From: a virus
DNA length: 42,300 nucleotides
Virus record (IMG/VR): IMGVR_UViG_3300037247_001547
Span: 1 to 42,300 of that record
Reading direction: 5' to 3' (one strand)
Under the pieces are notes generated by a model. The model was not told where the DNA came from. It made no database searches and was given only the letters and a program-made list of their open reading frames with translations. Positions 9,047-42,300 of this stretch are shown here, piece by piece (positions within the stretch are counted from its first letter, which is position 1; every line of letters begins with the position of its first letter). The position numbers and the translations under genes are program-made.

Positions 9047-10018
9047 ATGGCAACACTCGGAGCAGACGAACTTACGCTCTTGGAGCTCGCCAATCGGACC
9101 GATGACGGAAATATCGCTTTGATTGCCGAAGTGCTCTTGGAGCAAAACGAATATTTGCAAGATGCGATTTTTCTGCCGGCGAACAAGATGACCGGGCATC
9201 AGTGGACGGAGCGACTTGCTTTGCCCACAACTGGCACTCGCCGGATCAATGATGGCGTCGCGAAGCAGGCGAGCAAGACCCGGCAAAATATTGAAGATCT
9301 CAATCTCTACGAAACGCATTCCCAGGTGGATCGGGAGCTCGTCACAACCTCTCCCAATCCTTCTGCTACGCGCGCCCAGGAAGACTCCGCGTTCGTGCAG
9401 TCGATGGCCAATCAAGTGGCCTCCGACTTCATTTATGGCAATCGTGCGAACGATCCCACGAAGCTCCACGGGCTGGCTGCCCGTATGTCCGCTCTCGATG
9501 CGCCGCGGATCATTGGCGCTGGTGGGTCTGGTGGCGACACAACCAGTATTTTCGTGGTTCAGTGGGGCGCGGATGCCGCCTACTTCTTCTTCAATCCCAA
9601 CTTTCCGGCGGGTTTGGAGATGAACGACAAGGGCGAACATCTGGTTGATGGCGAAACTGCCGGCACCAGGTACTTTGCGTTGATCACACAGTTTGTTCAG
9701 CGTCTTGGTCTGGCTGTTATCGACCCGGCGCGGAATATTGCCCGCGTCGCCAATATCGAATCGACCGGCTCCAGCAACATCTTTGACGAAGACCTTCTGA
9801 TCAAGTCCACCAACGAGTTGCGCATTCCCGGCAACGCCTCGATTCTGGTCAATCGCACTGTTCGGGCGCAGATGCAGATTCGCTCGAAGGACAAGACCAA
9901 CGTGAATTACACCTCCGGCGACATCAACAAACTGTCCGGCCAGCCGCAGTTGTTCTTCAACGGCATTCCGATCCGCTTGATGGATGCCATCGTGGACACG
10001 GAGACTGCGGTCGCCTAA
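9047..10018 (+). CDS. Major capsid protein, BPP-1/Bbp17-like
   Basis: 323 aa; ATG at 9047 follows AAAGGTGC. Matches remembered features of the podoviral capsid family: TLLELANRT near the N-terminus, IAEVLLEQNEYLQDAIF, AN-MTGHQWTERLALP, NQVASDFIYGN, DTTSIFVVQWG, then a C-terminal strand region with FFNGIPIRLMDAIV. Presumed HK97-like fold. A separate small capsid-associated gene follows, as in BPP-1-type phages. Confidence 0.85.
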   Translation: MATLGADELTLLELANRTDDGNIALIAEVLLEQNEYLQDAIFLPANKMTGHQWTERLALPTTGTRRINDGVAKQASKTRQNIEDLNLYETHSQVDRELVTTSPNPSATRAQEDSAFVQSMANQVASDFIYGNRANDPTKLHGLAARMSALDAPRIIGAGGSGGDTTSIFVVQWGADAAYFFFNPNFPAGLEMNDKGEHLVDGETAGTRYFALITQFVQRLGLAVIDPARNIARVANIESTGSSNIFDEDLLIKSTNELRIPGNASILVNRTVRAQMQIRSKDKTNVNYTSGDINKLSGQPQLFFNGIPIRLMDAIVDTETAVA

Positions 10019-39244: not shown

Positions 39245-40411
39245 CGTCAATAGTTAACGACTTGTATTGGTTGTGAGAAATCATGCCAAGTTGGCTAATC
39301 TTCCGATCTCGCCATCCCGAAGGGCATGTCCGCAACAAGTCCATCCAATCCAACTGGATAAGTTGGCAAGGTTGCGATCCTGGCACGATCTTTGCGTGAC
39401 AATTAATCGTCGAAGTTGGCGCGATTCTTGCGATCCCCCACCCCCATCACCAGAATCGGTTGCTTGATCCCTTCTGCTTTTGATGGTTGCCGTCCGCTGC
39501 CTTCGGTATCCCCGAACTTGCAATACGCAGTGAGTCCGTCGAGGTTGCTGTATCCCCAACTTGCGATACGCCAGTGATTCCGTCGCTTTGGCAGTTGCTG
39601 CATCCCTGCTGCCTGGCTCTATTGGCGTAGCCCGACCGCTTCCAATCACCCCGCGCCAAGCTTTATCGGTGCGGCTTCCACTTATTATGCATCTTAGATG
39701 CATCCATTTATCGGTGCCTCTTTAATTTTACGAGCGCAGCGAGTTCCTTATCTTGGTTGCCGTGAGCTTTGGCCGTGAGCTGGTTGCCTCCTTTTTCCTT
39801 CTGCTTCACCTTCCTCTGCTTTGGATGTGAGCTGGGGTGGGCCGAGAGCTCCCGATCGACGTGTTCGGATTTCGAAAACGGGCGTGAAAGGAATTTGAAA
39901 ACAGGTATGGTCACTTTTTGGAAATGGGCATGGTCGTTTGGCGGAAACCGAGCTTGGCCGATGGTTCGCGATTCGGGTGGATTTTTTCACGGTCGGAAGT
40001 ATTTCGTGTTGGATGGTTGACGTGTTTCGAAAATTGTTTTTGAAAAAAGAAAATCCTGCCTAATTCCATGATGCATGCAAAAACGAAAAGAGAAATTTTG
40101 CATATATGCTGTTTTGAGAAAAGAATGCTGGTTTCTGGCGCAAAAGAACGCAAACTTTTGTAGCAGTAGGAAAAGCCTTATTCCCAAAGGCACGGTTTTT
40201 TCTGTTAGATTTTTTGGTTCATTGTTGTGGTTGGTTTAAATCTTCTAGGACCATATACATTATTGGTTTGTTGGGCCAGGAACCCTCCAACACCATGACC
40301 ACGGAACATGAATTGCCGAACCAATACTCAAACACCAATAAAACAAAAATCGTTTCCCCCGTTTCCAAAAGAAAAGGAATGATACAGACACGATTCTGTG
40401 CGTTAGCAATC
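39245..40411. other. Gene-poor region with tandem and iteron-like repeats
   Basis: No ORF with ribosome site and protein-like composition is visible. Contents: ~44-bp imperfect tandem repeats beginning GTATCCC (39506, 39550; degraded at 39600), recurrent GGTTGC-ATCCC words (39371-39600), TTTATCGGTGC direct repeats (near 39662 and 39707) flanking an ATGCATCT-T-AGATGCAT palindrome (39687-39703), four degenerate 21-25-bp units with a GAAAACGGGCATGGTC-like core (39867-39960), then AT-rich sequence to ~40400. Origin or packaging-site candidates. Confidence 0.5.
39867..39960. repeat. Iteron-like degenerate repeats
   Basis: Four consecutive units sharing GGAAA or GAAAAC followed by GGG/GGT and CATGG/TATGG/GCTTGG words, with ~24-bp spacing (two helical turns plus), as in replication-initiator binding arrays. 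Degenerate, so chance similarity is possible. Confidence 0.4.
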
Positions 40412-40431
40412 GCAGTAGCCCGACCGTGAGG
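40412..40431 (+). repeat. 20-bp dispersed repeat, copy 1
   Basis: GCAGTAGCCCGACCGTGAGG; one mismatch to 41841-41860, with a shorter relative near 39627. Part of a hairpin CGACCGT (40421-40427)/ACGGTCG (40450-40456) that contains the palindrome CTCCGCGGAG. Confidence 0.6.
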
Positions 40432-40475
40432 GAGGGCCTCCGCGGAGTGACGGTCGACGAGGAAGTGGTGTAATA

Positions 40476-40859
40476 TCACCACCACCAAATCATATCCTTT
40501 ATCATTTCCCATAACCACCAACCACCAAACCCCCAAAACAACCCAAACATAATTCCCCCAATCACAATACATTCCTTAACTTTACTTCTATTCCTATACA
40601 ATCTTCCCATTTCAAAATAATAATCATTTACACTCTCCTCCCAACACCTATCATCCTTCTTCACACAACACACAAAATTACCCTTTTTCATTATTCCACA
40701 CACATCACATACATACCATAATTCCATAAACCATCCACACCCACACCTTACCCTATCCTTTTCAATATCCAAATCTAATTTCCACCTCAAATCCCATCCG
40801 TTTACCCTAATTCCCCGTTTACATCCAATCCTTACACAAAATCCCCTTCTCAACACCAT
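40476..40859 (-). CDS. Cytosine-depleted ORF, 127 aa, Cys/Trp-rich
   Basis: Between 40471 and 40884 the plus strand has only two G, so the minus (sense) strand is almost C-free. In such a strand stops should be common, yet 127 codons stay open from ATG 40859, with AGGAGG 9 nt upstream and a TTGACT -35 at 40914. The product cannot use Pro, Thr, Ala, His or Gln; it is rich in Trp, Gly, Arg and Cys, with RCGCGW and VCDVCG zinc-ribbon-like pairs and a hydrophobic C-terminal span. No recognised homologue. May instead be a base-composition island with chance openness. Confidence 0.4.
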   Translation of the reverse strand: MVLRRGFCVRIGCKRGIRVNGWDLRWKLDLDIEKDRVRCGCGWFMELWYVCDVCGIMKKGNFVCCVKKDDRCWEESVNDYYFEMGRLYRNRSKVKECIVIGGIMFGLFWGFGGWWLWEMIKDMIWWW

Positions 40860-40862
40860 AAT

Positions 40863-40917
40863 CCCCATCCTCCTTTTTCTATTTGTCACAGCATGGCGTC
40901 GGAGGCATAGTCAAGGC
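40863..40917 (-). repeat. Inverted promoter-leader repeat, left arm
   Basis: Minus-strand reading matches 41054-41107 over ~55 nt with about 11 mismatches and one gap; the last 14 nt (AAAGGAGGATGGGG) are identical. Contains -35, -10 and leader of a leftward promoter. Confidence 0.65.
40885..40914 (-). promoter_or_regulatory. Divergent leftward promoter, weak -10
   Basis: TTGACT (40914-40909), 18-bp spacer, TGTGAC (40890-40885). The -10 is poor but aligns with TATGAT of the mirror promoter at 41080. Confidence 0.4.
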
Positions 40918-40926
40918 TTGGAATGC

Positions 40927-40979
40927 AATAAATCTGGCAGTGCGGCCTGTCGTTTGGCCGCACTGTGGCTTGATTTATT
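40927..40979. terminator. Bidirectional terminator-like hairpin between divergent promoters
   Basis: AATAAATC (40927-40934) pairs with GATTTATT (40972-40979) and CAGTGCGGCC (40938-40947) with GGCCGCACTG (40956-40965). GC core with A/T flanks on both sides suits termination in either direction, or a DNA cruciform. A second inverted repeat, AATATTCGA/TCGAATATT, is at 41003-41046. Confidence 0.55.
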
Positions 40980-41053
40980 TCATGGAACCCGAAGGGCAAA
41001 AGAATATTCGACTACTTCTGCTTTATTTCATTGCCAATCGAATATTGTTTTGG

Positions 41054-41107
41054 GCCTTTACTTTGCCGGAGCGCCATGATATGATGAATAGACAAAGGAG
41101 GATGGGG
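41054..41107 (+). repeat. Inverted promoter-leader repeat, right arm
   Basis: Mirror of 40863-40917; see that entry. The two arms bracket a ~135-bp segment with two hairpins. Confidence 0.65.
41057..41085 (+). promoter_or_regulatory. Divergent rightward promoter
   Basis: TTTACT (41057-41062), 17-bp spacer, TATGAT (41080-41085), the same -10 as the promoter at 26596. Followed by AAAGGAGGATGGGG at 41094. Confidence 0.55.
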
Positions 41108-42173
41108 CCCAACGATCAACGAACTGTGATTGCAGTACTACCGCCGCCCGTCATCGCCCTCCGATTGCGTTCGGTTGCCCCATTGTCCAACTTAATCTTC
41201 CGCGAAAGGCATGACATCGGCTTTTTGATGGCATGATCTTTCGCCTTCCGCCACACTAGCTCGCACTCCGATTGCGGCTTGATCCACGTTGATTTTGATG
41301 GAGACGCCAGAATCGTGACGCCGGTGGATTGGCGGCGCGATTCTGGCTTCGACTTCCGAATGGTCGGTTGCGGGTGGGACGGGGGGAGGGGCCGACGCCC
41401 GCACTTGACCGAAGGTATTCGGGACGGCTGTTTGGCCCGAATATGCTGGGACGGCGGCCCGTGGGTGGGGCGGGGCTGGAATCTGGCTGATTTTGATGGC
41501 TGTACTTCCGAATTGGGGGCCGCCGGTGGGTTGGCGGCCGGGTGGGTGGGATTCACTGTTTTAGATGAAGACGCAATGGGCATGACGCGGCTTTATGCGG
41601 CGGGACCATTGCTTCGACCTCCGCTGTGGTTGGTGGTGCGGGTGGCGGGTGGGAGGGCAGTGGCCGAGGGGGACGACGAGTAAACGGCCGTCGCGCGCCT
41701 CTGCCTGGCCGGCGCTCGACCGAGGTTCCGCCGACTCTTCGGTGCGGCCGGTTCGCGAGGTTCTGCAAGTTACGGCCGGGCGAGGATAACTCCCTTGAAT
41801 CAGGAGACAAAGAGCTGTTCCCGTTTCAGCCAAAACAAAAGCAGTAGTCCGACCGTGAGGACAACCTTGCCGAGTTAAAAAACAAGGGCCCACCTACTGT
41901 TTTTATAGTGTTGTATTGCTTGCACCTACAAGTCAAAATGTGGTCGGGGCTCAACTTTAAGCAGTAGTAGCCGGGGGTGACTGAGCGGTGGTTTTTCTGC
42001 TGTTGCCGCGATAGCGGCACCATTGTCCATCATCGTCCTCTCATTGCGTGTTGGTTGAGGGCGGGTCGGGTGGCGCGGCGGCAGGAGGCGGGCGTCTGGC
42101 AAAGATTCGGCGGTATGCTTTATCGCCGCCGAACGCCCCGACCGGATGCCGCCGCCAAGGGTGGGCGGGTGGG
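41092..42173 (+). ncRNA. Candidate large structured noncoding transcript (continues through base 1 to ~345)
   Basis: Between the promoter at 41057 and the intrinsic terminator at 305-345 (across the circle junction, ~1.4 kb) no convincing gene exists, but perfect stems are frequent: GCCAGAATCG/CGATTCTGGC (41304-41345), TATTCGGG/CCCGAATA (41417-41442), GGCCGCC/GGCGGCC (~41518-41540), TGCCGC/GCGGCA (~42004-42019), and three nested stems at 42075-42155 (GCGGCGGCA/TGCCGCCGC, GGGCG/CGCCC, TTCGGCGG/CCGCCGAA). A G-quadruplex-like G3-T-G3-AC-G6-A-G4 lies at 41372-41391. A 44-codon ORF at 41102 is possible but has its start abutting the SD. Confidence 0.4.
41841..41860 (+). repeat. 20-bp dispersed repeat, copy 2
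   Basis: GCAGTAGTCCGACCGTGAGG, 19 of 20 identical to 40412-40431. A weaker relative is at ~41963 (GCAGTAGTAGCCGGG). Confidence 0.6.
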
Positions 42174-42300
42174 CTGTATCCCTGTTGCTTTTGATGGGGA
42201 GGCGTGGCCGGCGACCGCGCGCGGAGCGCGCTCCGCTGTTGTTGCTTCATCCCCGACTGTCTGGCTCATGCTCCATCATTCGTTCTTCATCACACTCCGA
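42174..42300. repeat. Terminal direct repeat, right copy
   Basis: Exact copy of bases 1-127. Joining here makes the gene-poor islands at both contig ends one continuous region. Confidence 0.9.

Follow-up and report, generated by a model that had tools for sequence, protein, structure and literature searches.

In MazF endoribonuclease toxin systems, messages that lack ACA are spared. C-less and G-less transcription cassettes have been engineered (PMC8969151, PMC9303389). Among the nucleotide-directed defences, prokaryotic viperins produce the chain terminators ddhCTP, ddhGTP and ddhUTP, of which ddhCTP stops RNA chains (reviewed in PMC12926258), and AvcID removes dCTP and dCMP (PMC10511110). 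As far as we found in one open-access library, there is no description of natural genes that avoid one base altogether, with spacers and untranslated ends included. We describe here a phage locus at which a gene almost devoid of cytosine on its coding strand very probably exists, and compare it with C-free stretches in other viruses.

Results

Genome context of the tract

The window, i.e., the whole stretch of DNA analysed, is the entire virus record IMGVR_UViG_3300037247_001547 (42,300 bases). Positions 1-127 are identical to 42174-42300, and these identical 127-bp ends therefore close the phage genome, which is probably complete, into a circle of 42,173 bases. The genome encodes a large terminase of the Terminase_3 family, an SPP1-type portal and a capsid protein with counterparts in many phages (30-47%). 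Genes are read rightward from about 1.2 to 24 kb and leftward from 38.8 down to 24.2 kb, and the two sets are separated by a divergent region of about 4-5 kb that has little coding capacity, spans the closed ends and contains the tract. The leftward genes, which lie downstream of the tract, are presumed to be early.

This mostly non-coding region (39400-42300 and 1-1190) holds blocks with a strong strand bias (G 41-46% at 41301-41700; C 42% and G 14% at 827-976), as well as repeats that have diverged, TTTTGATGG and CTCCGATTGCG among them. A second strongly folding stretch was observed at 41201-41440 (z about -4.7 on both strands), which includes an inverted repeat at 41292-41361. In addition, a direct repeat, GCAGTAGYCCGACCGTGAGG, is present at 40412-40431 and 41841-41860 and encloses a 1.4-kb segment with the C-poor gene and the large inverted repeat (Table 1); our search of viral contigs found no further contig that carries it.

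Base composition of the tract

The preliminary description had reported a stretch without G on the plus strand, and base counting confirmed it: G is absent from 40471 to 40799, the longest G-free run of that strand (329 nt), and occurs only at 40800 and 40817 within 40471-40884 (C153, A137, T122, G2). On the minus strand, which is the coding (non-template) strand, the unit therefore has 2 C in 414 bases with 37% G and 33% T, and its flanks are ordinary. The next-longest G-free run is 35 nt, an adjoining 67-nt piece being set aside. With a G content of 27% in the window, the chance of 329 G-free bases is about 10^-45, and the composition-segment score of the tract was 119 compared to 10.7 for the next best segment of the window. 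We found no tandem-repeat array in the tract beyond a 25-nt stretch. The edges of the tract lie 8 bases 5' of a Shine-Dalgarno sequence and 5 bases past a stop codon, delimiting a single minus-strand gene unit in which the C-poor stretch spans the ribosome-binding site, the coding region and the stop.

Table 1. Features at and beside the C-poor gene (positions in the window)
Feature	Position	Strand	Basis
Tract with two plus-strand G (two C on the minus, coding strand)	40471-40884		base count
C-poor gene; ATG at 40857-40859, stop at 40476-40478; 127 codons (127 aa) plus stop; Cys/Trp-rich, basic N-terminus, C-terminal membrane-like helix	40476-40859	-	ORF list, composition, structure prediction
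Two retained C, both inside the 8-mer GTAAACGG	40800-40817	-	base count, repeat check
Inverted repeat; 36-nt arms, 86% complementary, two inner hairpins	40863-41107		folding and repeat search
Shine-Dalgarno AAAGGAGG, 9 nt ahead of the ATG	40869-40876	-	sequence read and pattern check
Promoter-like TTGACT-18-TGTGAC, weak second hexamer	40885-40914	-	read from sequence, aligned with the right-hand copy; missed by consensus scan
Divergent promoter-RBS copy TTTACT-17-TATGAT, facing right, with AAAGGAGG at 41094-41101	41029-41107	+	consensus scan and alignment
Putative 44-aa ORF behind the right-hand copy, ordinary composition	41102-41236	+	ORF list

The open frame and its protein

The gene frame has no internal stop, and the two other minus-strand frames have 15 and 14. 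An in-frame GTG at 40889 is a possible alternative start, yet it lies upstream of the Shine-Dalgarno sequence. The earlier estimate that about 9 percent of random codons of this composition would be stops was about right (10-11%), and so was the claim that 127 open codons behind a Shine-Dalgarno sequence are unlikely by chance: the observed open length is 135 codons, and the longest among 5,000 composition shuffles was 115. In 5,000 second-order Markov sequences of the tract, the 99th percentile of the open length was 90 codons and the largest was 137.

The predicted protein lacks Pro, Thr, Ala, His and Gln downstream of the ATG, as the preliminary description had stated, and the membrane-like end it had proposed corresponds to an uncharged C-terminal stretch of 21 residues (shuffle p = 0.003), which speaks for a real protein. 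The CxxC pairs that had also been proposed were reduced to a single true CxxC (CDVC). Single-sequence structure prediction was poor (pLDDT 45), except for the C-terminal helix. We sought relatives of the locus by protein and DNA homology searches and found none in viral contigs, genome contigs, phages, Pfam or PDB; the sole PHROG match was weak (E 0.005) and lay over the membrane-like end. The nearest contig (L003) is 100% identical over part of the genome and stops short of the tract.

Given the phage's own codon usage, the synonymous avoidance of C in the gene has a log10 P of -36.9, and the avoidance at the amino-acid level (the five missing residues) one of -17.4. The amino-acid make-up is almost random for a C-free sequence. 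The codon periodicity of the gene is likewise random-like (chi2/df 0.96 vs a median of 6.2 in 54 pieces of the phage's other genes), but a C-free winged-helix gene of another virus (see below), which is backed by real paralogues, is equally low (1.18), so periodicity is a weak test for C-free genes and a low value does not count against the reality of one. Two C remain in the unit, which makes the exclusion incomplete here. With an orphan protein and two C left in 414 bases, the window unit alone is the weakest of the three cases presented here, and the other two carry much of the argument.

An inverted repeat beside the gene

As RNA, the inverted repeat next to the gene has a predicted minimum free energy (MFE) of -118.5 kcal/mol (z -9.8). 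It was the sole one recovered by a genome-wide scan (30-nt arms, at least 25 pairs), and similar inverted repeats occur at two loci in 2.0 Mb of related phages. Alignment of the two halves showed them to be divergent copies of a single promoter-RBS-like sequence, the left copy serving the C-poor gene and the right copy the 44-aa ORF. The last base of the left promoter-like sequence is the final C ahead of the C-free stretch; we infer the promoter, and the transcript ends of the C-free units, from the Shine-Dalgarno, stop, promoter-like and terminator-like sequences. The Shine-Dalgarno sequence of the gene sits within an arm of the repeat, and its predicted accessibility is 0-0.2 for a transcript starting upstream of 41107 and 0.75-0.95 for one starting inside the repeat. 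The folding model thus predicts that the Shine-Dalgarno sequence is hidden in read-through transcripts and free in those initiated within the repeat. We considered a retron or another known structured-RNA element and rejected it; the structure had no match in Rfam, and the gene beside the hairpin encodes 127 aa and has no Pfam match.

Search for other C-free units

Phages related by terminase or capsid protein (about 1.8-2.0 Mb) had no segment comparable to the tract, the strongest C- or G-poor segment scoring 21.7 vs 119 here, and the lowest C fraction among their 3,978 ORFs of 100 or more codons was 8.1% vs 0.7% here. Because of this, extreme C-poverty is not a trait of the window's phage group. 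We then scanned 2.9 million viral contigs with a pattern, validated on the window, that describes a C-less gene behind AAAGGAGG and ATG. Four loci were recovered (L158-L161). One of them (L159:1996-2206) was set aside as a C-less simple repeat; it holds a repetitive open frame of 84 codons behind a good Shine-Dalgarno sequence.

The 58-kb contig that carries the first of the remaining loci, L158, has genes for a T4-type DNA polymerase, primase and clamp-loader-like proteins. The coding strand of the locus has no C in 1,121 consecutive nt, although C makes up 22% of the contig. The C-free stretch contains ORFs of 79, 113 and 94 aa and one of 21 aa, and it terminates at the start of a terminator-like hairpin. 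The three larger ORFs show strong codon periodicity (p 1e-4 to 1e-7), and GGT is the commonest Gly codon of the unit (16/22). These three ORFs (L158:427-1448) are strongly acidic, with 21, 34 and 23 D+E compared to 5, 11 and 9 K+R. DNA-mimic anti-defence proteins are often strongly acidic. Also on the T4-like contig (L162, L164) are genes for GTP cyclohydrolase I, a dCTP deaminase-like protein, ThyX and a radical-SAM protein, an enzyme set that might hint at modified DNA.

L160 and L161 are located on two contigs of about 67 kb that represent related viruses in separate assemblies. Their C-free tract comes from two metagenomes and is identical in both. The identity extends over a block of 1,892 nt around the unit, which might reflect recent transfer; these viruses also share further identical blocks, up to 1,787 nt long, and we draw no conclusion from it. 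In the contig of the L160 virus (L165), C is absent from 1,024 nt that hold three genes, compared to 20% C in the contig. The first of these genes encodes a winged-helix protein. The same genome holds three paralogues of it that do contain C (32-38% identity), and the positions of Ala, Thr and Pro in the paralogues are mostly taken by Ser, Lys, Glu, Ile and other residues that need no C. A C-free gene with ordinary paralogues indicates that real proteins are encoded. The protein of the last gene is small and has two CxxC motifs. In base composition the unit is A-rich (46% A, 29% G). The flanks at L165:7900-8080 and 9080-9300 are AT-rich, and their C is largely found in recurring words such as GACTTAAG, CGTAAG and TTACGG.

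In both of these lineages the C-free stretch also covers the spacers between the genes and the untranslated ends, and the next-longest C- or G-free runs of the contigs are 55 (L158) and 51 (L165) bases. The units are found where a gene cluster starts, or close by. Across the three lineages, C could be used as a synonymous third base in 72 + 171 + 115 = 358 codons, and was used in only one of them. The single synonymous C in 358 codons, together with the C-less spacers and untranslated ends, indicates that the constraint acts on nucleotides and not on proteins or tRNAs. For the window itself, we consider it very probable that the gene is real and that C is excluded from it at the nucleotide level. 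The preliminary idea of a gene kept free of C therefore gained support from codon and amino-acid avoidance here and, independently, from two further virus lineages with C-free units of several genes. With the multi-gene units and the near-complete synonymous avoidance, C-free coding units of about 0.4-1.1 kb appear to be real and recurrent in unrelated viruses. Three lineages are a lower bound and give no estimate of frequency, because the scan pattern was fixed to one particular ribosome-binding site.

Discussion

We propose that the tract would be a short protein-coding transcription unit in a divergent control region, from which cytosine is excluded at the nucleotide level. Since the template strand is C-rich, neither a shortage of dCTP nor an attack on C in double-stranded DNA is the reason for the exclusion, and any protection would extend to the RNA or the non-template strand only. 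The purpose might be to have the mRNA made and kept intact while C in RNA is a liability, either through a low or poisoned CTP pool (e.g., by ddhCTP from prokaryotic viperins) or through a C-specific RNA-cleaving or RNA-modifying activity of host or phage. Of the ideas offered in the preliminary description, CTP depletion or an attack directed at C would thus be the best candidate. The encoded protein could then be an early counter-defence or take-over factor. An attack on CTP or on C in RNA in these hosts is a hypothetical pressure, which we infer, and the ddhGTP and ddhUTP that viperins also make would not be countered by C-free RNA, which is a point against the proposal. The whole chain, from a C-free unit and a recurrent class to escape from something acting at C in RNA and an early counter-defence role, is put forward tentatively, as a reading that we would not yet call probable. 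Somewhat more doubtful still, though possible, is the general statement that unrelated bacterial or archaeal viruses hold dedicated three-letter, C-free early operons that can still be transcribed and translated while C in RNA is lacking, poisoned or under attack.

A cost attached to every C is better matched by an action at C in RNA, or by a one-way loss of C from an exposed non-template strand, than by graded effects of Rho or of structure. It is unlikely that C was lost for the sake of an unstructured mRNA, in which no G-C pairs form and ribosomes load and run freely, with a 245-nt leader that could silence read-through transcripts. The sense RNA is nearly unstructured (MFE of -0.05 to -0.09 kcal/mol per nt, with the antisense RNA near 0). 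Replacing one U by C brings the MFE of a 150-nt stretch down by an average of 0.6-1.2 kcal/mol, and the predicted switch in Shine-Dalgarno accessibility would fit such a leader. However, the window RNA is no less structured than its own shuffles beyond what composition gives (z +1.0), and graded selection should tolerate many C, but two lineages have none over more than 1 kb, spacers included. We regard as decidedly unlikely a strand-specific loss of C over evolution, by a cytosine deaminase acting on the non-template strand exposed by transcription while selection keeps the proteins working. Such a one-way process would give exactly zero C, as seen in two lineages, would be limited to the coding strand and the apparent transcribed body, as the exclusion is, and would be compatible with the shared 8-mer context of the two C retained in the window. 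The preliminary description had offered strand-specific cytosine deamination; in the form of a recent C-to-T conversion of the window gene it is contradicted by the codons, which show no excess of T at fourfold-degenerate sites (GTT accounts for 1/12 of those for Val and GGT for 3/16 of those for Gly). GGA dominates in the unit of the 67-kb viruses (G043), the T4-like unit (G042) with its many GGT codons is more ambiguous, and the neighbouring genes are untouched; the mutation spectrum cannot be read from the 67-kb viruses (G043/G044), whose two copies are identical.

The preliminary description had also raised a structure-free single strand for replication, which the tract might provide. A role in replication through RNA, with a G-rich, C-free transcript that stays on the template as an R-loop and primes replication, the open frame being secondary, is in our opinion very unlikely. 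It would suit the position of the tract in a long, mostly non-coding divergent control region beside the only large inverted repeat of the genome, and the high G content of the non-template strand; it leaves the open frame unexplained, and it does not account for the A-rich unit of the 67-kb viruses or for the several ordinary-looking genes of the T4-like unit. Rho enters in two ways. The preliminary description had suggested a Rho-loading site on the plus-strand RNA, and an excess of C over G with spaced UC and CC would be a feature of that antisense RNA only, should it be transcribed. The suggestion seems a poor explanation, as the tracts elsewhere span several genes on the opposite, sense strand and isolated C would be immaterial. 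Conversely, Rho sites need C in excess of G, with UC or CC every 8-12 nt (PMC6797219), and a C-free message would present none, so that the host could not silence an incoming early operon; we strongly doubt this evasion as well, because C below G would suffice, isolated C would be harmless, total absence would not be expected and translation already shields ordinary early genes. Protection from restriction, with one strand lacking C and hence no palindromic site containing G and C in a leading segment, follows from base pairing and agrees with the location of the units in their gene clusters. Yet a single C substitution would generate even a 4-bp palindrome in only 25-30% of cases. Avoidance of such sites thus accounts for at most about 30% of the possible C, not for its total absence. 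The remainder of each genome is of ordinary composition, and we regard this explanation as highly improbable. We judge it equally remote that the tract arose by faulty assembly, from converted DNA, or as low-complexity DNA in which a frame happens to be open. The orphan protein, its random-like periodicity and the failure of the one near-identical contig to reach the tract are in keeping with such an origin; against it, the record closes on itself through its terminal repeat, tracts of this kind also occur in three further contigs, of which two were assembled separately from related viruses, no repeat array was found beyond the short stretch mentioned above, and ordinary DNA should be about 50% T after conversion, compared to the T content observed.

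If the proposed escape from something acting at C in RNA is true, it would be a counter-defence of a general kind that is built into base composition instead of a protein. C-free units would be a sign of selection under which each single C carries a cost, and early counter-defence genes could be located by this simple signature in phages that lack any homology.

Among known systems, the purine-loaded genes of some related phages (e.g., L062:4601-4833) share a C-poor coding strand with the tract, but none of the 3,978 related-phage ORFs falls below 8% C, and there is no total exclusion confined to a single unit. Prokaryotic viperins and the nucleotide-directed phage defences AvcID and RADAR would supply a pressure; a loss of dCTP of the AvcID type, however, cannot explain an exclusion from one strand when the opposite strand is C-rich. 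The ACA-less mRNAs of MazF systems resemble the phage unit in that a message is spared for want of the attacked sequence, and differ in that a trinucleotide is missing there whereas the base itself is missing here. The engineered C-less and G-less cassettes used in vitro are likewise transcribed stretches without one base, through which the polymerase runs without that nucleotide until the first missing base. They are man-made and need not code, whereas the phage unit is natural, protein-coding and recurs in different viruses.
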